From assembly GCA_005882995.1 (NCBI GenBank), contig VBCY01000420.1, positions 1 to 45,972 on the forward strand: 45,972 nucleotides of DNA. The letters are read 5' to 3'. The position numbers and the translations under genes were made by a program. Below are positions 24,866 to 38,027 of the stretch, piece by piece; position 1 is the stretch's first letter; every line of letters starts with the position of its first letter. The DNA comes from Betaproteobacteria bacterium. Lineage in GTDB: Bacteria > Pseudomonadota > Gammaproteobacteria > Burkholderiales > Casimicrobiaceae. The notes under the pieces were generated by a model, which was not told the DNA's origin, ran no database searches, and was given only the letters and a program-made list of their open reading frames with translations.

Positions 24866-25504
24866 ATGAGAGACTTTCCCGGCGTGATCCTGACGGCGAC
24901 GATATGGGCCTATTGGATCGGCATCGGCACGATGATCGTTCGCGTACGCCGGAAGGCGCGCCGTTCCGCCGGTCTCATTCCGCATCAGCCGCTGGAGCGC
25001 TTGATGTGGATCGTCTGGGTGCCGCTGGTCGGCGCGTGGAACGTGCTGCCGTACCTCTCACTCGTACGCCATCATCCGCTGCTGCGCGCGCCTGCGTTCG
25101 CGTTGGAAGATCCGGCGTACTCATCCCTTCGCTGGATCGCTGCGTTCACCGCTGTCGCGTGTCTCACGCTCACCGCCTGGTGCTGGGCGCGAATGGGCAC
25201 GAGCTGGAGCATGGCGATCCGCGAGCGCGACAGCGGCGAGCTCATCACCGACGGATTGTTTGCTCGGGTTCGACATCCCATTTACGCGCTGTCGATGATG
25301 CTCATGCTGTGCTCGGTTGTGATCGTGCCGACACCTCTCATGATGCTGGTCGGGGTGGCGCATCTGGCGCTCAATCAGCTCAAGGCACGCAACGAGGAAC
25401 GCCACCTTCTGAAGGTTCATGGCAGCGCTTATGCGCACTATGCACAGCGCACAGGTCGTTTTCTTCCGCGGCTCAGTACCGGAGAGGCCGAGCGAATACG
25501 CTAG
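24866..25504 (+). CDS. Isoprenylcysteine carboxyl methyltransferase-like membrane protein
   Basis: A 212-residue integral membrane protein with about five hydrophobic segments. The C-terminal motif pattern LITDGLFARVRHPIYALSM and NEERHLLKVHGSAYAHYAQRTGRFLP matches the ICMT/PEMT family of S-adenosylmethionine-dependent membrane methyltransferases; the RHP and EE pairs belong to the SAM-binding region. Bacterial members have mostly unknown lipid or small-molecule substrates. It starts 30 bases after the acyl-CoA dehydrogenase and ends two bases before the next gene, so it is transcribed with the hydrolase module downstream. Involvement in a lipid modification is suggested by that position only. 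Confidence 0.82.
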   Translation: MRDFPGVILTATIWAYWIGIGTMIVRVRRKARRSAGLIPHQPLERLMWIVWVPLVGAWNVLPYLSLVRHHPLLRAPAFALEDPAYSSLRWIAAFTAVACLTLTAWCWARMGTSWSMAIRERDSGELITDGLFARVRHPIYALSMMLMLCSVVIVPTPLMMLVGVAHLALNQLKARNEERHLLKVHGSAYAHYAQRTGRFLPRLSTGEAERIR

Positions 25505-25506
25505 CC

Positions 25507-26556
25507 ATGGACAAGCTGCACATCGGTTTGCGCGCCGCGATATGGAGCGCGGCCCTCGTCGTGGGAATGGCGATGCACGCCAGCGCGAGATCGGCGCCGG
25601 CCCCTGGATCGCCGCCGTCGTCGCAGCGTGCAATGGACGCGGCGAGCGAAGCACGTATTCTGGCGCTCGCACCCGAGCGCATCAGCGCCGCTGACGTACG
25701 CGATGTTCTCTCGCATGCGCCCGCGCCTCGAGTCATCTGCCTGCAAGGCAGTCTGGCGCCGATCAGCATGCGTCCTTTCGCCGAGTTTCTCATCGCCATG
25801 GGATATCCGGAATCGCAATTGCGCGATCCCGCCGATGGCAGCTTCTCGCACGGCAGTTTTGCGGACGGCGAAAAGCTGGCGGGAACGCTCGCCTGGTACT
25901 ACGAGAGCGAGGGGATGAGGCCGATGCTCATCGGGCACAGTCAGGGCGGGATGCTCGCCATCAGGGCGCTCTATGAACTCGCCGGCGAGTTCAACGACAA
26001 GATCACTGTCTGGAATCCCCTCACCGACCGCTCCGAGCAGCGCTCGACCATTGTCGATCCGATCGACGGCATCGAACGGCCCGTGGTGGGACTCAAGCTC
26101 TCCTATGTCACGGCGCTTGCCACCGGCAAACTGCCGCGCATCCTGCTCGGCCAGTGGACGATGGTGAGCCGTCTGCGAGCCATACCGGACACCGTTGAAG
26201 AATTCACCGGCTTCATCATCGAATGGGACGGCATCGCGGGCACCCCCCCGGGGAGCGAGGCTTATCACGCGATCGGCAGCGCCAAGGTACGAACGGTTTG
26301 GCTGCCCAATGCGACCAGCCACATCGCCATGCCGCAAGCGAAGGAGCTGGCGGTGAATCCGGTCACGCGCGCCTGGATCGATCACTATGTGCCAGGAGAA
26401 AACGCAGTACCTCCGACCGACGCCGGAATCGATGCTTCCAACATCCTGCACGCGGCCGATATCTGGTTCAGCGTGAAAAAGCATTGGTGCCTGGAAGCGC
26501 AAAAGCTCGTCCGCGCGCGTCAAGCGGCAAACCCGAACAAAGGCACCGGCGGATGA
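25507..26556 (+). CDS. Exported alpha/beta hydrolase, paralogue 1
   Basis: A 349-residue protein with an N-terminal hydrophobic export signal (AAIWSAALVVGMAMHASARS). The nucleophile elbow GHSQGG carries Ser145 in the alpha/beta-hydrolase fold, following WYYESEGMRPMLI. A histidine in TSHIAMP is the probable catalytic base. The C-terminal ADIWFSVKKHWCLEAQKLVRAR is nearly identical to the end of the protein encoded at 27851, so the two are paralogues separated by one gene. The substrate is unknown; an esterase or lipase acting in the periplasm is likely. The stop overlaps the next start as ATGA. Confidence 0.82.
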   Translation: MDKLHIGLRAAIWSAALVVGMAMHASARSAPAPGSPPSSQRAMDAASEARILALAPERISAADVRDVLSHAPAPRVICLQGSLAPISMRPFAEFLIAMGYPESQLRDPADGSFSHGSFADGEKLAGTLAWYYESEGMRPMLIGHSQGGMLAIRALYELAGEFNDKITVWNPLTDRSEQRSTIVDPIDGIERPVVGLKLSYVTALATGKLPRILLGQWTMVSRLRAIPDTVEEFTGFIIEWDGIAGTPPGSEAYHAIGSAKVRTVWLPNATSHIAMPQAKELAVNPVTRAWIDHYVPGENAVPPTDAGIDASNILHAADIWFSVKKHWCLEAQKLVRARQAANPNKGTGG

Positions 26557-27854
26557 AGCGACGGCTCAATCTTTTTCAGGCGATGATGCTGCGCTGGCGT
26601 GAGCTCTATCCCTACAGCGCAGTTCACACGCTGCGTGTCAGCACAACGCTGGACGTTGGGCGGCTGGAGCACGCCATCGCCGGCACGCTTGAAGCGCGCG
26701 GGCTGACCGGCCTGGAGATCGACATCCGTCGCCGGTGCTACGTTTGGCAAGGAGGACCGGCGACGCAAAGAGTCCATGTCGTCGCCGCGGCGGGACATCC
26801 GGGCGAAGCGCTGGATCATGAAATGGAACGCCAGCTCAACATGCCGTTTGCCGCGGACGGAAGCGTCGATCCCTTTCGTTTCTTTGCGGTGGGCGGAGCC
26901 TCTTCATTCCATCTCGGTCTCGCTTACGATCACGTTGTCGCTGGCGGGGATTCGATCGCACGTCTCTTGAAGAGCATCGCGGAGCGTTACGACGACGCAT
27001 CGCGGCCGGTTACACAACCGCCGAGCCCGTATGCGCCGACCTACGCAAAGCTGTTCTGGCGCGAAAGACGCGCCTTCCTTGGGGGATTGGGAACGCTGCC
27101 CAAGCTTGCCGCCGACTGCCGTTGCGCGGTGCGACCCCGCTACGCGTCTGCAGAGGACGGTTACAACGGGTTCATCCGCTTTCGAATCGATCCGCTGGGA
27201 CATGCGGCGCTCACCAGAGCCGCCGCGGCGTGGCAGGTGTCGTTGCAGGACCTGTTCCTGGCCATGACGCTGCTTGGCCTTTCACCGCTCTCGCCCGGGC
27301 GCACCAACGCCTCGCGCCGGCGCGAGATCGCGGTGGCTTCGATCGTGAACATCCGCGGCGAGCTGGGCTCTGAAGCCGCGCATGCCTTCGGTCCCTGCCT
27401 CGCTTCGTTTCGCGTTGCACATCCCGTCCCCGCTGAATCGAGCCTGCGGGAGCTCGCGCTCGCCGTGCGCGCTCAGAAGGAACGCATCAAACAGCGCAAG
27501 CTTTACCTGCAAACACTTCTGGCAATGGCGGTGGCTGGGTTGGAATGGCGCTTCCTGTCTCGTGAGCAACGCGCGAGATTCTTCGCCAAGCATTACCCTG
27601 TATGGGCGGGAGTTACTCCACTCAATCTGAATCCCATCTGGTCTGAAGAGGGTGAAAACCGCGGACCGCCCGAATACATACGCGCCGTTTCCACCGGGCC
27701 CCTGGCACCGATGATCGTCGCACTTACCAGCGGCGGCAGTACGATCAACGCGGGTATCTCTTTCCGGACCACGGTATACAGCCGGGAAGCGGTTGAACGG
27801 CTCGCTGCGGATATGCTGGATTCCATTGCACGTCTCGAACAGTGGGCAGCATGA
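26553..27854 (+). CDS. Condensation-domain-like acyltransferase
   Basis: A 433-residue protein resembling the chloramphenicol acetyltransferase/condensation superfamily (PapA- or wax-ester-synthase-like). The candidate active-site motif is YDHVVAGGDS around His127: the second His of HHxxxDG is kept, but the first His is Asp and the Asp is Gly. The C-terminal half has VNIRGELGSEAAHAFGPCLA and YSREAVERLAADMLDSIARL, patterns seen at the end of such enzymes. It is coupled by ATGA overlaps to an exported hydrolase on each side. A role in moving an acyl group between a carrier or CoA and an alcohol is inferred; the altered motif leaves activity open. Confidence 0.6.
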   Translation: MKRRLNLFQAMMLRWRELYPYSAVHTLRVSTTLDVGRLEHAIAGTLEARGLTGLEIDIRRRCYVWQGGPATQRVHVVAAAGHPGEALDHEMERQLNMPFAADGSVDPFRFFAVGGASSFHLGLAYDHVVAGGDSIARLLKSIAERYDDASRPVTQPPSPYAPTYAKLFWRERRAFLGGLGTLPKLAADCRCAVRPRYASAEDGYNGFIRFRIDPLGHAALTRAAAAWQVSLQDLFLAMTLLGLSPLSPGRTNASRRREIAVASIVNIRGELGSEAAHAFGPCLASFRVAHPVPAESSLRELALAVRAQKERIKQRKLYLQTLLAMAVAGLEWRFLSREQRARFFAKHYPVWAGVTPLNLNPIWSEEGENRGPPEYIRAVSTGPLAPMIVALTSGGSTINAGISFRTTVYSREAVERLAADMLDSIARLEQWAA

Positions 27855-28936
27855 AGCTGTACTCGACACTCAAGTGCGCGTTGCCTGCTTTGGCGATAGC
27901 ACTGCTTGCTGCGATATTCACCGCGGGCTGCGCAACGGCACCCGATCGCGGTCAAGCCGCGCCTCCATCCGCGGTACAAGGCGGTTCCGTTCTGCGATCG
28001 CTCGCGTTGGACCGCTCATTGGAAGAGCGGCTGCTTGCGCTCGATCCCGAACACATCACCGAGAGCGACGTCAAGAACACGCTCGCACATGTCCCGGCGC
28101 CGAGGATCATGCTGATTCATGGCGGGGTCTATGGCACACACCTGGTCATGGCAACCTTCGCCAGGTTTCTCATCGACCTGGGATATCCGGAGACGAAGCT
28201 GCGCGATCCCATCGATGGCGAGTACTCCTACAGCCCATACGGAGCGAGCGAACAGAGCGCCGGCGCGATCGCCTGGTATTACGAGCACGAGGGCGTGCGC
28301 CCGATGCTGATCGGTCACAGCCAGGGTGGCATTCAGGCGATCAAGATTCTCTACGAGCTGGTGGGCTCGTACCGCGACAAGATCGCCGTCTGGAACCCGT
28401 TTACGGGCACGGCCGAGAACCGTGCTTCGATCATCGATCCGCTCACCGGCGCTGACCGACCCGTGGTCGGCGGAGTATCGGTCGCGTACGTCTCAGTGGT
28501 CGGCGCGGGCGGCGCGGCGCTCCTTCTGCCGAATCAGTGGAGCATGGTCGAACGCCTGCACACCATTCCGAATTCGGTCGAGGACTTTACCGGGTTTTCC
28601 ATCAACGTCGACTTTGTCGCGTGGGACTTCGGCTCCACCGAAAAAGACCCCTACCAGCATAACGGCACGGCCGTGGTCCGTAACGTGCGCTTGCCCGGCA
28701 CCTACAACCACGTCTTCGTCCCGCTCACCGAGCGTGTCAACAACGATGCGGCTATGCGTGACTGGCTCAACGCTTTCGTGCCGGGTGGGGCGAACCCGGC
28801 GCCGCCAGGCGAGACCGAAGGCCGCGCCTTCAACGCGCTTTGGACCGCGGACGTCTGGTTCAGCGTCAAGAAGCACTGGTGCCTGGAAGCGCAGCGCCTG
28901 GTTCGCGCGAGAAGAGCATTGGTCGCGCAGCACTGA
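27851..28936 (+). CDS. Alpha/beta hydrolase lipoprotein, paralogue 2
   Basis: A 361-residue relative of the hydrolase at 25507, with the same GHSQGG elbow (Ser157) after WYYEHEGVRPMLI and the same C-terminal ADVWFSVKKHWCLEAQRLVRAR. Unlike its paralogue it begins with a lipoprotein signal: LLAAIFTAGC provides a lipobox with the acylated Cys, followed by ATAP, so it should be membrane-anchored. A histidine in TYNHVFVPL may complete the triad. It is coupled to the upstream acyltransferase-like gene by ATGA. The pair of differently localised paralogues suggests processing of one substrate at two envelope positions. Confidence 0.84.
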   Translation: MKLYSTLKCALPALAIALLAAIFTAGCATAPDRGQAAPPSAVQGGSVLRSLALDRSLEERLLALDPEHITESDVKNTLAHVPAPRIMLIHGGVYGTHLVMATFARFLIDLGYPETKLRDPIDGEYSYSPYGASEQSAGAIAWYYEHEGVRPMLIGHSQGGIQAIKILYELVGSYRDKIAVWNPFTGTAENRASIIDPLTGADRPVVGGVSVAYVSVVGAGGAALLLPNQWSMVERLHTIPNSVEDFTGFSINVDFVAWDFGSTEKDPYQHNGTAVVRNVRLPGTYNHVFVPLTERVNNDAAMRDWLNAFVPGGANPAPPGETEGRAFNALWTADVWFSVKKHWCLEAQRLVRARRALVAQH

Positions 28937-29060: not shown

Positions 29061-29816
29061 ATGTCAGGCGCTCTCGCCGGAAAAGTTGCGCTCGTCACCG
29101 GCGCGTCGCGCGGCATCGGCCGCGCCATCGCGCGCAAGCTTGCGTCGGCAGGCTGCGACGTCGCGCTGAATTACTACAACAGTCACGACGAAGCGCAGGC
29201 CCTGTGCGCAGAGCTGCAGGCGAACGGCCGTCGAGCGCACGCTGTACAGGGCAGTGTCGGGGTTCCCGACAGCGTCGACGAGATGTTCTCGGAAGTGCGC
29301 AAGCATTTCGATCGTCTCGACATCGTCGTCAGCAATGCTGCCTCCGGGGTACTCAAGCCGGCGATGGAGATGTCGCTCAAGCACTGGCGCTGGTGCCTTG
29401 AAACCAATGCCTTCGCGCTCGATCTGCTTGCGCAACGCTCTGTGCCGCTGATGCGCGACGGAGGACGCATCATCGCCATGTCGAGCCTCGGCGCGCAGCG
29501 CGCGATGCCCGATTATGGCTTCATCGGCGCTTCCAAGGCGGCGCTGGAATCCCTGGCGCGCACGCTGGCGCAGGAGCTTGGACCGAAGAACATCCGCGTC
29601 AACGTGGTGAGCGCAGGCGTGGTCGATACCGATGCATTGGCCTATTTTCCCAACCGTGAGCAGCTCCTTGCGAATTTCGCCCAGCGTGCTCCCGCGGGAC
29701 CCGTGCTCACGCCGGACGACGTCGCCGGCGCGGTTTATCTGCTGTGCCTTCCCGAAGCAGCGATGATCAACGGACACACTCTGGTCGTCGACGGCGGCTT
29801 CTGCATCTCCGGATGA
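29061..29816 (+). CDS. fabL: Enoyl-ACP reductase III-like SDR (FabL type)
   Basis: A 251-residue short-chain dehydrogenase. TGASRGIG (13-20) binds NAD(P)H. The active-site spacing is Tyr152-x6-Lys159 (YGFIGASK), the spacing of enoyl-ACP reductases, not the Y-x3-K of ketoreductases. Long stretches match Bacillus subtilis FabL in pattern: VSNAASGVLKPAMEMSLKHW, MSSLGAQR and DTDALAYFPNREQLL. It should perform the last reduction of each elongation cycle, trans-2-enoyl-ACP to acyl-ACP. It leads a seven-gene fatty-acid-synthase-like operon and is coupled to the ketoreductase by ATGA. FabL is best known from Firmicutes, so its presence here is notable. Confidence 0.82.
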   Translation: MSGALAGKVALVTGASRGIGRAIARKLASAGCDVALNYYNSHDEAQALCAELQANGRRAHAVQGSVGVPDSVDEMFSEVRKHFDRLDIVVSNAASGVLKPAMEMSLKHWRWCLETNAFALDLLAQRSVPLMRDGGRIIAMSSLGAQRAMPDYGFIGASKAALESLARTLAQELGPKNIRVNVVSAGVVDTDALAYFPNREQLLANFAQRAPAGPVLTPDDVAGAVYLLCLPEAAMINGHTLVVDGGFCISG

Positions 29817-30583
29817 GCTCACCCATGCTTGTCGATTCCGGGCTCGCCGGAAAGGTCGCGATCGTGACCGGAGGCAGTCGCGGCATCGGCCGCGCCATCG
29901 TCGAGCGGCTCGCCGACGAAGGCGCCGACGTGACGTTCTTTTTTCGCGACAACGCAGCGGCGGCCGAGGAGGTTGTTGTGGCGGGTCGCGTCGCCGGCCG
30001 CACAGTCGCTTCAGAACAGGTCGACGTGCGCGACGTCAAAGCGTGCGCAAGCGGCGTCGAGCGGGTGGCGGAGCGCACCGGACGCGTCGACATCCTGGTC
30101 AACAACGCCGGGCTCATTCGCGATAACCAGCTCGCGGCGATGGACGACGAAGACGTGGAACTGGTGCTCGACACCAACATTGGCGGGGTGTTCAACATGA
30201 CGCGGGCGGTCGTGCCGCACATGATCGTGCAGCGCTCCGGCCGGATCATCAATGTTTCATCGGTCGCGGGAGAGAAGGGCGGTCGAGGACAGACCAACTA
30301 CGCGGCGAGCAAGGGAGCCATCAATGCCTTTACGCGTTCGCTCGCAGTCGAGCTGGCGCCGCGCAAGGTGACCGTGAACTGCGTAGCGCCAGGGGTGATC
30401 GACACCGAGATGTCACAGGCGGTGCGCGACATGGCGGGCGAGCAAGTGACTTCACGCATACTGCTCAAGCGCTACGGCAAGCCGGAGGAAGTCGCCTATG
30501 CGGTCTGCTTTCTCGCCTCGCGCTATGCCGACTACGTGACCGGACAGATTTTTGCCGTCGACGGCGGCTTCAAGATGGAGTGA
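29813..30583 (+). CDS. fabG: 3-oxoacyl-ACP reductase (FabG type)
   Basis: A 256-residue classical short-chain dehydrogenase with TGGSRGIG (19-26), NNAG (97-100) and the triad Ser150, Tyr163, Lys167 in SS...NYAASK (Y-x3-K). It reduces 3-oxoacyl-ACP with NADPH. ATG 29813 is chosen because it overlaps the preceding stop as ATGA; an internal ATG at 29825 is possible. Being clustered with a dedicated carrier protein and ketosynthases, and not with fabD or acpP, it is probably a pathway-specific paralogue of the housekeeping FabG. Confidence 0.9.
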   Translation: MSSPMLVDSGLAGKVAIVTGGSRGIGRAIVERLADEGADVTFFFRDNAAAAEEVVVAGRVAGRTVASEQVDVRDVKACASGVERVAERTGRVDILVNNAGLIRDNQLAAMDDEDVELVLDTNIGGVFNMTRAVVPHMIVQRSGRIINVSSVAGEKGGRGQTNYAASKGAINAFTRSLAVELAPRKVTVNCVAPGVIDTEMSQAVRDMAGEQVTSRILLKRYGKPEEVAYAVCFLASRYADYVTGQIFAVDGGFKME

Positions 30584-30588
30584 ACGAA

Positions 30589-31017
30589 ATGGGGCAGAGC
30601 GAAATCAGCAAGGAAGAAATCATGGCGGTCTATCCCAAGGTTGCCGAAACCATGGCGGACGCGCTCGGATGCGACGTCGAAGATGTGAAGCTCGACGTGT
30701 CGCTGATCGAAGGGCTCGACGCCGAATCGATTGACTTTCTGGACATGGTCTTCCGGCTGGAGCGTGCGTTCAAGATCAAGATTCCGCGCGGCAAGATCGT
30801 CGAGAATGCGCGAGGCGATCTTCCCGAAGCGGAGTTCGAGCAAAAGGGCATCGTCACGGAAAAGGGCCTCGCGCAGCTCAAGACATATTTGTCGGAACTT
30901 CCTGCTGACCGCTTCAAGGTTCCGATGAAGGTTGCCGATATTCCGCGCTTGTTTACTCCCGAAACCTTCTGCAAGCTCGTGGTTCGTGCGCAAAAGGAAG
31001 CGCAGGCGGCGGCGTGA
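30589..31017 (+). CDS. Long acyl carrier protein resembling AcpXL
   Basis: A 142-residue carrier protein. The phosphopantetheine attachment serine is Ser47 in GLDAESIDFLDMVFRLE, followed by FKIKIPRGKI. The SIDFLDMVF...FKIKIP pattern is much closer to rhizobial AcpXL (SLDFLDIVF...FGIKIP), the carrier for very-long-chain acyl groups of lipid A, than to AcpP. A C-terminal extension of about 60 residues (through LPADRFKVPMKVADIPRLF) makes it longer than either. ATG 30589 has GGAG eight bases upstream; a GTG at 30580 overlapping the fabG stop is the alternative. The last codons and stop belong to a 115-bp tandem duplication. It should be primed by the AcpS-type domain encoded at 34730. Confidence 0.85.
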   Translation: MGQSEISKEEIMAVYPKVAETMADALGCDVEDVKLDVSLIEGLDAESIDFLDMVFRLERAFKIKIPRGKIVENARGDLPEAEFEQKGIVTEKGLAQLKTYLSELPADRFKVPMKVADIPRLFTPETFCKLVVRAQKEAQAAA

Positions 31018-31235
31018 GCAGTGAGCAGGGGCCCCGTGCTTTCCGGGGATGCGAACGTCCGCGAATCGCCGCCGGCGGCCGACACGCAACGGGACAGTCG
31101 AAAGCAGGGGGCTGAAGGAGGCGGCGGCGTGAGCAGTGAGCAGGGGCCCCGTGCTTTCCGGGGATGCGAACGTCCGCGAATCGCCGCCGGCGGCCGACAC
31201 GCAACGGGACAGTCGAAACCAGGGGGCTCAAGGAG
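31006..31235. repeat. 115-bp direct tandem duplication after the ACP gene
   Basis: Positions 31006-31120 and 31121-31235 are two copies of a 115-base unit that differ at only a few bases (AAAGC versus AAACC, CTGAA versus CTCAA). The unit begins with the last Ala codons and TGA of the ACP gene. It includes the palindromes GGGGCCCC and GCCGCCGGCGGC and ends with AAGGAGG. The second copy's AAGGAGG is the only evident ribosome site for the following dehydratase-like gene. I see no coding potential within it. Confidence 0.92.
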
Positions 31236-31248
31236 GCCGCAGGCCTGA

Positions 31249-32112
31249 ATGTCGGCAGGTATAGCACGCATGGATCAACATTTCGCCGCGTTTTCCTTTG
31301 TCGATCGCATCACGGAGCTCGAGCCGGCGAAGCGTGCGCGGGGCGAATTCGCCGTGCCCGGGGATATCTCCGAGTTTCCTCGATGCCTCATCGCGGAAGC
31401 GGTGGGGCAACTCGCTGCCTGGGTATCGATGAGCGCGATCGCTTTTCGCGGACGCCCGGTCGCGGCGCTCGCTGCGGAGACGCGGTTTCACGGAGACGTT
31501 CGCCCCGGCGAGAGCCTCACGCTCGGCGTCGAAATCGACAGCTGCGACGACGAAGCGGTGGCGTACGGCGGTTGGGCGAAGGTGGGCGACAGGCTGGTGA
31601 TCGAGCTGGAAAACTGTCTCGGCCCGATGCTCCCCGCAAGCGACTTCGACGATCCGCAGGCGCTGCATCGACGATTCGAGCTGCTGCGTAGCAACGGCGC
31701 TCCGCGAGGACGCTTTCAGGGCGTCAAGCTGGCAGCGCCGGAAGTAACCGCGCACGACCCCGGTCGCTCGATCGCTGCGACACTCAAGGTGCCGACGACA
31801 GCGCCGTTTTTTGCCGACCATTTTCCGCGCCGGCCGGTCTTTCCAGCGACCCTGCTGCTCGATGCGCAGATCCGCCTGGCGACGCAGCTGGCTCGCGAAG
31901 CTGCCCAAGCTGGAAACGGCAAGCTTGCATTGCAACGCATGAACAACGTCAAAGTGCGCTCCTTCACCAACCCGGGGCAGACACTCGAGATCGGTGTCGA
32001 AGCGACGCCACGCGAAGGAGCGCTGCGCGTCGCGTTGTCGGCGCGCGCCGGTGGCAAGTCGGTGGCGACGGCTCGCGTCGAGTTTGGCGAGGCCAAGGCG
32101 ATCGTCGCATGA
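31249..32112 (+). CDS. Double-hotdog dehydratase-like protein
   Basis: A 287-residue protein with two hotdog-fold halves. The C-terminal half has DHFPRRPVFPATLLLDAQ, matching the FabZ/FabA active-site helix with His191 and an acidic Asp205 where FabZ has Glu. The N-terminal half has LIAEAVGQLAAW with Glu50 but no HFP histidine. It probably dehydrates 3-hydroxyacyl-ACP, as FabZXL does in rhizobia, although that protein is a single hotdog. ATG 31249 follows AAGGAGG contributed by the tandem repeat; ATG 31270 (MDQHFAAFSF) is a credible alternative. The stop overlaps the ketosynthase start as ATGA. Confidence 0.75.
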   Translation: MSAGIARMDQHFAAFSFVDRITELEPAKRARGEFAVPGDISEFPRCLIAEAVGQLAAWVSMSAIAFRGRPVAALAAETRFHGDVRPGESLTLGVEIDSCDDEAVAYGGWAKVGDRLVIELENCLGPMLPASDFDDPQALHRRFELLRSNGAPRGRFQGVKLAAPEVTAHDPGRSIAATLKVPTTAPFFADHFPRRPVFPATLLLDAQIRLATQLAREAAQAGNGKLALQRMNNVKVRSFTNPGQTLEIGVEATPREGALRVALSARAGGKSVATARVEFGEAKAIVA

Positions 32113-33425
32113 GCTCTTCCCGCCGCCGCGTCGCCATCACCGGGCTTGGCCTGGTGACACCCGTTGGGAATGACGTCGCAACGAGTTGGACGGCGCTGCT
32201 TCACGGCCGCAGCGGCGTAGCGCCGATCACGCTGTTCGACGCCAGCGGCTTCAGCACTCGCATCGCGGCCGAAGTCAAGAACTTCAGCGACAACGCCATC
32301 ACCGCTGAGCGCAAGCTGCTCAAATTCACCAATCGTCCGCACCGCTTCGCGCTCGCCGCCGCAGAGCAGGCGATCGCTGACGCAGGGATTGCGCCCACGC
32401 CAGAGACGGCCGAACGCTGGGGGTGCTCGGTCGGCACCGGCATGATGGGCGTCGCCTATGAGGATCTTGCCGCGATTCAGCGACACTCCGCGGCCGACGG
32501 CGAGTTGCACCCTGATCGACTTATCGGCGATGACGCCGCCAACGATCCATTGGTGTTTTGCCGCAGCCAGTCCACGGCGGGCGTGTCGCTGCTGACCCGA
32601 CGCTTCGATATTCGCGGCTACGCGACGTCGGTGCACACGGCCTGCGCCTCCGGCGGACAGGCGATTGGTACGGCATTGAAACTCATTCGCCGCGGCAGCG
32701 TCGATTACGCGCTCGCCGGGGGATTTGATTCCATGATCAGCCCAGTGGGGCTCGCCGGATTCTGCCTGCTCTCCGCGGTTTCTGCGGATAACGACACGCC
32801 GGAGCGTGCGAGCCGGCCCTTCGATCTCACGCGCAACGGCTTTGTGCTCGGCGAAGGGTCCGGCTTCGTGGTGCTCGAGGAGTGGGAGTCGGCGCGCCGT
32901 CGCGGCGCACGCATTTATGCCGAGCTCGCCGGTGACGGCAACTCGCTCTCTTCGTACCGGATCACCGATTCGCCGCCGGATGGCGACGGGCCGATCCAGT
33001 CGATGCGCGCGGCGCTCTGCGACGCGGGTGCGTCGCCGGACGAGGTCGACTACATCAACGCCCACGGAACTTCCACCTTCATGAACGACAAGAGCGAATC
33101 GGCGGCGATCCACGCGGTGTTCAGTGACAAGACCGATCGCGTCTCGGTGAGCTCGACCAAGAGCACCATGGGCCATCTCATCGCCGCGGCGGGGGCGGTC
33201 GAAGTCGTTGCCTGTGCGCTCGCCATCCATCACGGTGAGATGCCCGTCAATGCCAACCTGGTGGAACGCGATCCCGACTGTAATCTCAATCTGGTCGCTG
33301 GCGGTCCGCAGCGACGCAGGCTGCGCATGACGCTTTCCAATTCCTTCGGCTTCGGGGGCTCGAATAGCTGCGTCGCGTTGCGCAATCCCGAAGAAGTCGA
33401 CGGCGCCGGCGCGCAGCGCGCCTGA
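32109..33425 (+). CDS. Beta-ketoacyl-ACP synthase (FabF type), copy 1
   Basis: A 438-residue thiolase-fold condensing enzyme with the complete triad Cys179 (HTACASGG), His319 (NAHGTST) and His356 (STMGHLIAAAG) and the conserved Lys351. It starts RRVAITGLGLVTPVGNDV and ends with the FabF signature NSFGFGGSNSCVAL. It should condense malonyl-ACP with a growing acyl chain. Two ketosynthases side by side are also found in the rhizobial very-long-chain locus (FabF2XL and FabF1XL). It is coupled to the dehydratase gene by ATGA. Confidence 0.93.
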   Translation: MSSSRRRVAITGLGLVTPVGNDVATSWTALLHGRSGVAPITLFDASGFSTRIAAEVKNFSDNAITAERKLLKFTNRPHRFALAAAEQAIADAGIAPTPETAERWGCSVGTGMMGVAYEDLAAIQRHSAADGELHPDRLIGDDAANDPLVFCRSQSTAGVSLLTRRFDIRGYATSVHTACASGGQAIGTALKLIRRGSVDYALAGGFDSMISPVGLAGFCLLSAVSADNDTPERASRPFDLTRNGFVLGEGSGFVVLEEWESARRRGARIYAELAGDGNSLSSYRITDSPPDGDGPIQSMRAALCDAGASPDEVDYINAHGTSTFMNDKSESAAIHAVFSDKTDRVSVSSTKSTMGHLIAAAGAVEVVACALAIHHGEMPVNANLVERDPDCNLNLVAGGPQRRRLRMTLSNSFGFGGSNSCVALRNPEEVDGAGAQRA

Positions 33426-33443: not shown

Positions 33444-34724
33444 ATGTCCGCAGAGCGAGTTTTCATCACCGGCACCGGCGCCGTGTGCGGGACCGGAATG
33501 TCGCCGGAAGCGATTCTGTCGGCGGTGCTTGAAGGGCGCTCGGCCATCGCTCCCATACAGCAATGGGATACCAGCGGATGGCCGGTGACCATCGCCGCCG
33601 AGATGCCGGACTTCAACCCGCGGTCGCTGGTCGAGGATCGCAAGCTGCACAAGTTGATACGGCGCACCGATATGTTCGGCATCTATGCGGGGAGCAAAGC
33701 CATCGATGCAGCCGGCTTCACCGCCCACCGCGACGCGCTCGACAGTGCTGGCGCAGCCACGTTCTCCGATCGCAGCGGCGTCTATGTCGGCTCAGGCGGT
33801 GGCGCATACAACACTCAATACGAATACTTTCCGCTGATGAGCGAGGCGGCTGGCGACATGGTCGCCTTCGGCCGCGATCTTGCCAGCGTTGTGAATCCGA
33901 TGTGGCTGCTGCGCACGCTGCCCAACAACGTGCTTTGCCACGTCGCCATCAAGTACAACCTCAAGGGTTCCAATGCGTGCATCACCAACCACAGTTGCGG
34001 CGGCACACTGGCGGTGGTCGAAGCCGCCGAAGCATTGCGCCAGGGCGAGGCCGATCGCGCCCTCGCAGTGGGGCACGATGCACTGATCGAGCCGCAGATG
34101 GTGCTCTACTATCATCAATGCGGACTGCTCACGCAGGATACGATCCGTCCTTTCGATGCTCGGCGCAGCGGGAGCGTTTTCGGAGAGGGAGCGGGCGCGC
34201 TTGTACTGGAAACGCAGCGCGCCGCGACGGACCGCAATGCAACCGTCGTGGGCGAAGTGCTCGGCGGTGGCTGCGCGGCGGAGGCGCTGGGCCTTCTCGC
34301 CATTCGCGACGATGGCAACGGACTCGAGCGCGCCATCCGCGAGGCGCTCGTCAATTCCAAGATGGCGCCCGACGATATCGGCATGATCGTCGCGCACGGC
34401 AACGGTACGCCGCAGTCGGATGCCTCAGAGGCGGCAGCGATCCGCAGCGTCTTCGGCGATGGCGACAAGGCGCCGCCGGCAACGGCCTTCAAGTGGTCGA
34501 TCGGGCATCTCATCGCGGGGGCGGGAATCGTCGAGACGGTGCTCGCGCTTGGATGCCTGCGCCAAGGAGTCGTTCCCGGCGTGGCAACGTTGAGCAATCC
34601 GGACCCGCAGTGTGCCGGCGTGCGCGTGATGGCGGGCGAGCAGAACCCGCGCAACAACACCGCGCTCATCCTTTGTCGCGGCTTCGCCGGGACCAACGCG
34701 GCGCTCATCGTACGTTCGCTTTGA
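33444..34724 (+). CDS. Beta-ketoacyl-ACP synthase-like protein, copy 2
   Basis: A 426-residue condensing enzyme more divergent than its neighbour. The triad appears complete: Cys185 in TNHSCGGTLAV, His318 in AHGNGTP and His355 in IGHLIAGAG. Unlike FabF, the end reads RGFAGTNAALIV instead of FGFGGTN, and an insertion GSGGGAYNTQYEYFPLMSEA precedes the nucleophile. It is probably catalytic, perhaps with different chain-length preference, or it may pair with copy 1 as a heterodimer as in KS/CLF systems. It begins 18 bases after copy 1 and ends 5 bases before the next start. Confidence 0.88.
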   Translation: MSAERVFITGTGAVCGTGMSPEAILSAVLEGRSAIAPIQQWDTSGWPVTIAAEMPDFNPRSLVEDRKLHKLIRRTDMFGIYAGSKAIDAAGFTAHRDALDSAGAATFSDRSGVYVGSGGGAYNTQYEYFPLMSEAAGDMVAFGRDLASVVNPMWLLRTLPNNVLCHVAIKYNLKGSNACITNHSCGGTLAVVEAAEALRQGEADRALAVGHDALIEPQMVLYYHQCGLLTQDTIRPFDARRSGSVFGEGAGALVLETQRAATDRNATVVGEVLGGGCAAEALGLLAIRDDGNGLERAIREALVNSKMAPDDIGMIVAHGNGTPQSDASEAAAIRSVFGDGDKAPPATAFKWSIGHLIAGAGIVETVLALGCLRQGVVPGVATLSNPDPQCAGVRVMAGEQNPRNNTALILCRGFAGTNAALIVRSL

Positions 34725-34729
34725 CGTTG

Positions 34730-35989
34730 ATGGCGGATATCGCCGACACAGCGGCCAGTGAGGCGACGCGGTGCGGCATCGACACGGTCGAAGTGCGACG
34801 CATCGAACGGCTGCTCGCAGAGACCGCGTCTGAGGACTTGAACAGGATCTTCTCAGCGCAGGAGCTCTCCGACAGCGGCGAGGGGCCTGGCCGGGCAGCG
34901 AGCCTCGCGGCGCGCTTCGCCGCCAAGGAGGCGTGTGCCAAGCTCTTTCCGCGCGAGCTCGCGCTGGGTTTGATCGAGCCCATCGACTTCTCGGTGGCGC
35001 GCGATGGCTACGGCGCGCCGCAGGTCGTATGCAGTGCCAGGGCGCAGGCGCTCATCGATCAGCAACGCATTCGCGCCATTGTCGTCTCGCTCACCCACGA
35101 TCGCGTCAGCGCCTCGGCCGTGGCGCTGGCGTTGGCGGCCCGCTCTGCTGCTCCAATCGCCGGCAGGATTCTGTATTACGCGCTGCCGGTGCGCCGGGCG
35201 GTCATTCTCGAGAACCTTCGCCGGGTGTTCGGTGCGGGTGTGCCGGAGGGCGAGATCAAGCGCTTGGCGCAAGCGCATTACGCACATCTGTGGCGACTCT
35301 TCGGTGAGTTCCTGCGTTTTCGCTGGCTCTCTGCGGCGCAGCAAGCGGCGATCGTGCGCACCGAAGTCGACGCGCTCAAGCACGCACTCGGAGAGGGCAA
35401 GGGAGTCCTGATTCTGACGGGGCACTTTGGCAATTTCGAAGTCGCGACCATCGCCGGGCTCGCCCGGTTTCCTGAAATGCAGGGCCGCATTCACTTTGTG
35501 CGGCGAGCAATCAAGCCGCGCTGGCTCGATGCTCTGGTCACTCGCCGTTTCAGGCAGGCGGGGTTCGGAGTGATGTCCAAGCGCGGATCACTCGATGCGA
35601 TTCTCGAGCGTCTCGCGGCGGGAGATGTCATCGTGTTCCCCTTCGACCAGCACGCGAGCCCCCCTGACGGCATCGAGGTGGAGTTTTTTGGTCATCCGGC
35701 ATGGACCTTCAAGAGTCTCTCCATCATGGCGCTCGCCACTGGCGCGCCGGTGCTGCCGGCTGCGAGCTGGCGCGAGAGCGACGGGCATCATGTGCTGCGC
35801 TTCGAGGAGCCGTTGCCGCCCATTCACGACGAAAATGTCAACGAGGAAATCCGCCGCAACACGCGCGCCTACAACGCAGCGCTGGAGCGTCTCATCCTGC
35901 GTCATCCTGAGCAATGGTTCTGGGTGCACCGGCGATGGAAGCAAGTGGTGCGACGCAGACCGGCTGCAAAATCTACACGGTACTATTGA
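34730..35989 (+). CDS. AcpS-type phosphopantetheinyl transferase fused to LpxL/HtrB-type acyltransferase
   Basis: One 419-residue frame encodes two recognisable enzymes. Residues 14-137 match holo-ACP synthase: CGIDTVEVRRIERLL with Asp18, FSAQEL, RFAAKEACAKLF with Glu67 (49 residues after the Asp, as in AcpS) and VVSLTHDRVSASAVAL. About 145-410 match lysophospholipid/lipid A acyltransferases: LTGHFGNFE with the H-x4-E pair His232/Glu237, VFPFDQHASPPDGIEVEFFGHPA and HPEQWFWVHRRWK. The join has no stop, gap or start between the halves, and the usual N-terminal membrane helix of LpxL is replaced by the AcpS domain. It could prime the neighbouring ACP and then move its acyl chain to a lipid. ATG 34730 is chosen; TTG 34721 is a weaker option. 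Confidence 0.85.
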   Translation: MADIADTAASEATRCGIDTVEVRRIERLLAETASEDLNRIFSAQELSDSGEGPGRAASLAARFAAKEACAKLFPRELALGLIEPIDFSVARDGYGAPQVVCSARAQALIDQQRIRAIVVSLTHDRVSASAVALALAARSAAPIAGRILYYALPVRRAVILENLRRVFGAGVPEGEIKRLAQAHYAHLWRLFGEFLRFRWLSAAQQAAIVRTEVDALKHALGEGKGVLILTGHFGNFEVATIAGLARFPEMQGRIHFVRRAIKPRWLDALVTRRFRQAGFGVMSKRGSLDAILERLAAGDVIVFPFDQHASPPDGIEVEFFGHPAWTFKSLSIMALATGAPVLPAASWRESDGHHVLRFEEPLPPIHDENVNEEIRRNTRAYNAALERLILRHPEQWFWVHRRWKQVVRRRPAAKSTRYY

Positions 35990-37094: not shown

Positions 37095-38027
37095 ATGTTA
37101 GAGAGCCTGCCCAACCTTCTGGCGCCGAAGTATTTCGTGGTGTACGCGTTCATTGCGTTGGCTGTTTTCGTCCACTACCGCGGCCGCGTCCGTCATCGCT
37201 TCTACCGTCAGCTTACCGATCACTCGACGTTCATGGCACCGTACAACCTGCTGATGTACATGTTCTCGGCGGTTCCGAACAAGCCCTTCATCGAGATCGA
37301 CAAGTTTCCAGAGCTCAAGAAGTTGAGCGACAATTGGCAGACGTTGCGTCAGGAGGCGCTGCAACTCTTCGACGAGGGTTACATCCGAGGCGCGGCGAAG
37401 TACAACGATCTCGGCTTCAATTCCTTCTATCGTCGCGGCTGGAAGCGCTTTTACGTCAAGTGGTACGACGATCCTTTGCCCTCGGCCAAAGCGCTTTGCC
37501 CGAAGACGGTGGAACTGGTGCAATCGATTCCGTCGGTGAATGCCGCCATGTTTGCGCTGTTGCCGCCCGGGGGCAATCTCGGAAGGCATCGAGATCCCTT
37601 CGCTGGTTCATTGCGTTATCACCTGGGACTGTCGACTCCTAATTCGGAGGAATGTCGCATTTTTGTGGACGGGCAGCCGTATCACTGGCGCGATGGCGAA
37701 GCAGTGATCTTCGACGAGACATTCATCCACTGGGCGGAGAACAAGACCAAGCAGATGCGCGTGATCCTGTTCTGCGACGTGGAGCGGCCGCTGACCAGCC
37801 GGATCATGGCCAAGATCAATCACTGGTACAAGAACACGGTGATCCGCGCGAGCCAGACAGACAACATGGAAGGTGACCGCGTCGGCGTCTTGAATCACAT
37901 CTTCAGCGTCGCCTACTACCTTCGCGTTCCGGGCAGGGCGCTCAAGCAAAAGAGCCGGCGTGCCTACTACGCGACAAAGTGGCTGTTGGTCCTTGCGCTG
38001 GCTTACCTGATTATTGTGTACGCTTGA
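37095..38027 (+). CDS. lpxO: LpxO-like lipid A hydroxylase (Asp/Asn beta-hydroxylase family)
   Basis: A 310-residue Fe(II)/2-oxoglutarate-dependent dioxygenase with a membrane helix at each end (about 12-27 and 293-309). The order HYRGRVRHRFYRQLTDHSTF then YMFSAVPNKPFIEIDKFPEL is characteristic of LpxO. Iron ligands are His165 and Asp167 in GRHRDPF and His212 in FIHWAENKT, and MRVILFCDVERP supplies the region of the 2-oxoglutarate-binding Arg. LpxO adds a 2-hydroxyl group to a secondary acyl chain of lipid A at the inner membrane. Its closeness to an acyltransferase and an AcpXL-like system supports a shared role in acyl-chain tailoring of an envelope lipid. Confidence 0.88.
   Translation: MLESLPNLLAPKYFVVYAFIALAVFVHYRGRVRHRFYRQLTDHSTFMAPYNLLMYMFSAVPNKPFIEIDKFPELKKLSDNWQTLRQEALQLFDEGYIRGAAKYNDLGFNSFYRRGWKRFYVKWYDDPLPSAKALCPKTVELVQSIPSVNAAMFALLPPGGNLGRHRDPFAGSLRYHLGLSTPNSEECRIFVDGQPYHWRDGEAVIFDETFIHWAENKTKQMRVILFCDVERPLTSRIMAKINHWYKNTVIRASQTDNMEGDRVGVLNHIFSVAYYLRVPGRALKQKSRRAYYATKWLLVLALAYLIIVYA

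Follow-up and report, generated by a model that had tools for sequence, protein, structure and literature searches.

The stretch of DNA analysed here (hereafter, the window) comprises positions 1-45,972 of the forward strand of contig VBCY01000420.1 (assembly GCA_005882995.1) from a betaproteobacterium of the GTDB family Casimicrobiaceae. It carries an operon of fatty acid synthase-like genes that ends with a single gene encoding an AcpS-type phosphopantetheinyl transferase (PPTase) fused to an LpxL/PatA-type acyltransferase (Table 1). Wherever the contigs of the compared loci suffice, these genes follow one another on one strand in the same order: enoyl reductase (FabL), ketoreductase (FabG), acyl carrier protein (ACP), dehydratase, ketosynthase (KS), chain-length-factor-like ketosynthase (CLF) and, in the last place, the fusion. 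Since the CLF gene ends at position 34724, the fusion gene starts 5 nt beyond the CLF stop.

Table 1. Features of the operon, of the fusion gene and of the accessory neighbours in the window.
Feature	Position	Strand	Basis or remark
Condensation-like acyltransferase, accessory	26529-27854	+	family-f1 loci only
Unclassified protein, GHSQGG hydrolase-like motif	27842-28936	+	family-f1 loci only
FabL-type enoyl-ACP reductase (YxxxxxxK)	29061-29816	+	best PDB match B. subtilis FabL 3oic
FabG-type ketoreductase (YxxxK)	29822-30583	+	family match and motif
Dedicated ACP, 145 aa	30580-31017	+	PP-binding Pfam, alignment, model pLDDT 85.8
Double-hotdog dehydratase	31249-32112	+	FabA/FabZ families; His in C half, Glu in N half
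FabF-type ketosynthase, Cys-His-His intact	32109-33425	+	family matches and residues
Chain-length-factor-like ketosynthase	33444-34724	+	ketoacyl-synt Pfam; active-site Cys replaced by His (TNHS)
AcpS-acyltransferase fusion gene	34730-35989	+	single ATG-started frame, 419 aa, two Pfam domains
AcpS domain, residues 14-136	34769-35137	+	Pfam ACPS; PDB 3qmn by sequence and fold
Interdomain linker, residues 137-142 (~6 residues)	35138-35155	+	gap-free junction; coil in AlphaFold2 model
LpxL/PatA-type acyltransferase domain, residues 143-405	35156-35944	+	Pfam Lip_A_acyltrans; PatA/LpxM-like fold
LpxO-like lipid A hydroxylase, accessory neighbour	37095-38027	+	NF033391 E 6.4e-137, 455.5 bits vs cut-off 500

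The FabL-like protein matches its B. subtilis namesake with an E-value of 1.7e-62, the second PDB match being 67 bits lower, and its YxxxxxxK motif is conserved across loci, as are the His and the Glu of the dehydratase. The initial annotation had placed an ACP gene four genes upstream of the fusion; such a gene is indeed found there, as a dedicated member of the same operon, and its product carries an invariant AESIDFLD motif (Ser50 included) as well as a C-terminal extension of ~70 residues that is helical and conserved. A 115-nt tandem duplication with copies 98% identical (31004-31233) extends from the last part of the ACP gene into the gap that precedes the dehydratase gene. A Cys-less second KS is what KS/CLF pairs lead one to expect of a chain length factor, and the CLF-like protein has a His in the Cys position at all 22 of the 22 loci. 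In aryl polyene systems, the KS-CLF pair is ApeO-ApeC (PMC8358021). Downstream of the operon in the window, past a Zn-peptidase gene, lies the LpxO gene, which adjoins the operon in several relatives, too. The upstream side differs between families: only f1 loci encode a condensation-like protein there, together with two further, uncharacterised ones, and none of the three is found next to f11 operons. Within 25504-28936, again in f1 loci only, the condensation-like protein is flanked by two related GHSQGG-motif proteins, which showed no Pfam or NCBIfam family match.

The fusion gene is one uninterrupted frame without a single internal stop, as initially annotated, and its AcpS and LpxL/HtrB-type identities are borne out by family matches, PDB matches and predicted folds. 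The Pfam match to ACPS covers residues 15-101 (E 2.5e-10, 40.8 bits, cut-off 25) and that to Lip_A_acyltrans residues 144-404 (E 1.2e-35, 123.6 bits, cut-off 22.3), while a PDB sequence search aligned AcpS 3qmn with residues 15-132 and PatA/LpxM with residues 159-404. An AlphaFold2 model of the fusion (30 homologues in the alignment; mean pLDDT 90.2, pTM 0.84) yielded Foldseek TM-scores, normalised by target, of 0.85 for AcpS 3qmn, 0.83 for PatA and 0.67 for LpxM. The metal-site and catalytic residues of the AcpS half (D18, E67, K71, H123) and the H232-x4-E237 pair of the acyltransferase half are invariant in 30/30 aligned fusions from families f1 and f11; Asp18, Glu67 and His232/Glu237 had been correctly named as active-site residues in the initial annotation. 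The AcpS half scores above the cut-off of TIGR00556 (53.0 vs. 45.35 bits) and below the AcpS equivalog cut-off of TIGR00516 (49.0 vs. 59.8 bits), and the acyltransferase half falls under every lipid A transferase equivalog cut-off (best NF006270, 118.8 bits vs. 248). The latter half is also devoid of an N-terminal transmembrane helix, its Lip_A_acyltrans match starting at profile position 41; the unfused orthologue likewise matches this family late, from profile position 36.

The fusion is real and conserved, and it is no mere peculiarity of a single genome. A scan of contigs from GTDB species revealed 16 loci with 63-76% identity (14 near full length, two clipped by contig ends), and a search of 100 relatives revealed 27 carriers besides the window's own genome; the union of these overlapping sets comprises 34 further distinct homologues, which run unbroken through both domains. 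Over the junction (residues 132-148), none of the 30 aligned fusions has a gap and two have one inserted residue. Mean identity of these 30 to the window protein is 68% in the AcpS part, 69% in the acyltransferase part and 43% in the linker stretch (133-146), and median dN/dS values for the two parts are 0.30 and 0.31, respectively. An assembly or frameshift error that merged two genes would find some support in the fragmented source assembly (639 contigs) and in nothing else, and its probability is negligible, as the identical fusion, with gap-free junctions, recurs in many independent assemblies. Indeed, a stop or frameshift near residues 137-145, suggested at the outset as the place to look for such an error, was sought and is absent. 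Unbroken homology across both domains, invariant catalytic residues and a dN/dS of ~0.3 in both parts thus argue against an artefact of sequencing or assembly, which is ruled out by the intact fusions of the relatives.

As to distribution, the fusion was found in 6/399 genomes of the order sample (families f1 and f11) and in one additional genome of the class sample (G461, family f66), while the phylum sample held no fusion besides that of the window's own genome and a plasmid search gave no fusion match covering 80%. One fusion operon (L011) resides on a contig that binning assigned to Candidatus Methylomirabilota, reflecting either transfer or misbinning. The architecture had been presented as one for which no described protein was known; we found no description of it in the literature searched, but it is not restricted to this genome. 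A class-wide search also revealed unfused acyltransferases of the same type (~287 aa, E about 1e-80 to 1e-95) in six genomes (G475, G487, G627, G733, G470, G546), the loci of which hold the same operon, whole or partial, with an orthologous unfused operon in G475, G487 and G733 and a partial one in G627 and G546. We term these genomes Legionella-like because DotI/IcmL is present in all six (6/6) and a Legionella_OMP gene (E 1.9e-93) adjoins the operon of G487. No AcpS gene was found in the unfused operon loci, with the exception of G546, a MAG, where a separate acpS lies between the CLF and transferase genes (pair at L170:995-2241) and shares a stop/start overlap, TAATG, with the latter gene (L170:1400-1404). 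This pair is likely the precursor arrangement of the fusion.

In a tree of 50 transferases, the fusions form one clade (support 100/100), which is sister to the Legionella-like transferases (union 100/100), with the rhizobial LpxXL proteins (clade 100/99) and the ordinary LpxL/LpxM rows placed elsewhere; the fusion event, as far as can be read from sequences, happened a single time. The homologue of G461 (L167:8942-10459) has an intact acyltransferase half joined to a pseudo-AcpS, in which E67 is replaced by Arg and H123 is lost, and AcpS catalysis is therefore not kept in every fusion. Together, the transferase tree, the G546 pair and the decayed AcpS of G461 suggest a history in which acpS would have been inserted beside the transferase gene, fused with it once and left to decay in one line. 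The resulting series, from unlinked genes via an overlapping pair and a fusion to a fusion with decayed AcpS, offers a good case of the formation and reshaping of a gene fusion.

The unfused operons are informative about the possible product. The operon transferase is the sole Lip_A_acyltrans match in the genomes of G487, G733, G470 and G546, the last two of which are fragmented assemblies (240 and 320 contigs; completeness 91% and 67%, respectively), and in G627 all three such matches fall in the operon-type clade. Two additional tandem operon-type transferases of G627 (L172:6995-8704) lie apart from its operon. Lipid A of Legionella bears a 28-carbon 27-oxo fatty acid (PMC7956469), and the literature searched assigns no synthase operon to the C28 chains of Legionella lipid A. 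The unfused Legionella-like counterpart probably makes very long fatty acids of lipid A, and the gene set of the operon is directly testable in this respect because the Legionella C28 chains are known and, in that literature, have no assigned synthase operon.

A comparison of PPTase supply across genomes bears on the second part of the initial annotation, a closed circuit between the fusion and its ACP. Among typable f1 carriers, 20 genomes have an Sfp-type enzyme in addition to the fusion and the fusion alone was found in three more, while a canonical AcpS accompanies the fusion in the f11 carriers G069, G406 and G323, so that nearly every typed carrier has another PPTase beside the fusion. 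Eight further PF01648 matches in f1 carriers were checked, and none of them resembled a canonical AcpS (five gave weak matches, Sfp-like or other; three, L215, L217 and L218, gave no match). The PF01648 matches L212, L214 and L216 (in G047, G023 and G055) fall in very long open frames of 1440-1663 aa, possibly as PPTase domains of large synthases. Non-carriers have either a canonical AcpS (G007, G013, G018, G009) or an Sfp-type match only (G011, G019), and PPTase matches of the Legionella-like genomes are of the Sfp type only, except for the operon AcpS of G546. That the fusion is the housekeeping AcpS relocated is rejected for f11, where a canonical AcpS persists, and is doubtful for f1 because of the Sfp-type-only non-carriers G011 and G019. 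Since carriers hold another PPTase, Sfp-type or canonical, the fused AcpS provides an extra and probably dedicated activity; dedicated in-cluster PPTases exist in other systems (PMC9813960). One could guess that the ACP, with Glu for Asp before Ser in its AESID motif, requires a dedicated enzyme. The closed circuit thus stands with respect to the in-operon ACP and the two intact active sites, but not with respect to exclusivity, given another PPTase in carriers, Legionella-like operons mostly free of AcpS and the retention of the fusion in G461 despite a decayed AcpS.

With moderate confidence, we interpret the fusion as a bifunctional enzyme that primes the operon ACP and unloads its probably very long chain onto a precursor of lipid A or a comparable membrane glycolipid. 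The AcpS half would attach 4'-phosphopantetheine to Ser50 of the ACP; KS/CLF, FabG, the double-hotdog dehydratase and the FabL-type reductase would build on it an acyl chain that is fully reduced, controlled in length and probably very long; and the LpxL-like half would then pass this chain from the ACP to that acceptor. The fusion could be of benefit by giving an unusual ACP an activating enzyme of its own or one kept close to it. The catalytic activities, the very long chain, the lipid A acceptor and the benefit of the fusion are what we infer from sequence comparison, a lipid A precursor being a plausible acceptor. This interpretation draws on the conserved operon, the intact active sites, the Legionella-like orthologues that are sole transferases, the C28 chain of Legionella and the LpxO neighbour. 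In the best reading by analogy, the operon would contain all that is needed to synthesise a special acyl chain of lipid A, probably a very long one, and would be comparable to the rhizobial acpXL-lpxXL cluster without belonging to it.

The same two enzyme halves could instead serve another product, the chain ending up in a different lipid or in a secondary metabolite of polyene-like or ester-linked type. Type II polyketide and aryl polyene systems typically contain KS/CLF pairs (PMC8358021), f1 loci add the condensation-like protein, a possible partner, and two uncharacterised genes upstream, carriers also own an ordinary LpxL-type gene, and the nearest PDB fold, PatA, is a mannoside acyltransferase. 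Nevertheless, we regard such a product as rather unlikely: the operon transferase is the sole LpxL-family protein of G487 and G733, the operon has neither a starter-activating ligase nor a second independent KS, LpxO is nearby, the upstream accessory genes are absent from f11 operons, and the FabL-type enoyl reductase of the operon favours a saturated chain. Still less probable, in our estimate, is a role of the AcpS half mainly in docking or trimer formation, by which the ACP would be brought to the acyltransferase, with activation left to an Sfp-type enzyme or a free AcpS. The second PPTase of carriers, the general lack of AcpS in Legionella-like operons and the retention of the fusion in G461 with Arg for E67 and without H123 are in line with such a role, whereas the invariance of D18, E67, K71 and H123 in 30 f1/f11 fusions is unexpected for pure docking.

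Among known systems, the closest in design is that of rhizobia, which make and attach a very-long-chain fatty acid by a cluster of five or six genes with an LpxL-type transferase last (PMC11901934, PMC5613085). The rhizobial cluster acpXL-fabZXL-fabF2XL-fabF1XL-(adh)-lpxXL (loci L207-L211 in our comparison) and the window operon both combine, within a single operon, a dedicated ACP, a dehydratase and a KS pair with an LpxL-type transferase. They differ in that an alcohol dehydrogenase is found there and FabL with FabG here, in the AcpS-transferase fusion, a feature of the window operon, and in the separate clades of their transferases. The ACPs are also distant: with the AcpXL model NF005079, the window ACP reaches 35.5 bits (cut-off 83), and with rhizobial ACPs only 21-30 bits, as compared to 148-163 bits with Legionella-like ACPs. 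A search for AcpXL in the window's own genome gave no match at 1e-15. Orthology to rhizobial LpxXL is ruled out by the tree and by low scores of the ACP, KS pair and transferase against high Legionella-like scores. Aryl polyene clusters share with the window operon the KS + CLF arrangement (a Cys-His-His KS beside a Cys-less one), a ketoreductase and a dehydratase, but its seven conserved genes include an enoyl reductase and lack a starter-activating ligase and an ApeR-type second KS; identity with such a cluster is rejected on gene content.

In the known integrated (group III) PPTases, the fusion partner is a FAS or PKS synthase (PMC3909215, PMC4117218); they resemble the window protein in that the PPTase is fused into the pathway it serves. 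There, however, the PPTase sits on the synthase and modifies the ACP in cis, whereas here its partner is the acyltransferase that ends the pathway, and the ACP is encoded by a gene of its own; by its content (AcpS and acyltransferase, no synthase or ACP), the window chain falls outside group III. In the literature searched, the coverage of which is partial, we found no PPTase fused to an unloading acyltransferase. Stand-alone AcpS enzymes, which are homotrimers with shared active sites, have the same fold and catalytic residues, the window's AcpS differing in being fused and in falling below the AcpS equivalog cut-off. The LpxL/LpxM and PatA proteins (PF03279) share with the acyltransferase half the fold, the H-x4-E motif and a C-terminal HPEQWxWxHRRWK motif, while the position of their N-terminal membrane helix is taken by AcpS in the fusion, which forms a separate clade (100/100).

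If our interpretation is true, the activation and the release of a carrier protein would be physically joined, and one (probably trimeric) protein, with the ACP activator on the same chain as the final acyltransferase, would start and end the carrier's cycle. Known fusions of PPTases into pathways are few and concern synthases; here, the partner is the unloading enzyme. The fusion also directs attention to the unfused Legionella-like counterpart operon. We tentatively suggest, with less confidence than the bifunctional role itself, a new integrated-PPTase class in which the activator of a dedicated ACP is fused to a terminal acyltransferase, and an operon family that would represent a hitherto undescribed gammaproteobacterial very-long-chain lipid A route, Legionella included. 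A second PPTase-acyltransferase neighbourhood was observed elsewhere (L116:28-5331, G000:C75), where ~4 kb separate the gene of an Sfp-type PPTase from that of an LpxL-type acyltransferase; the two are within ~1 kb of each other in relatives.
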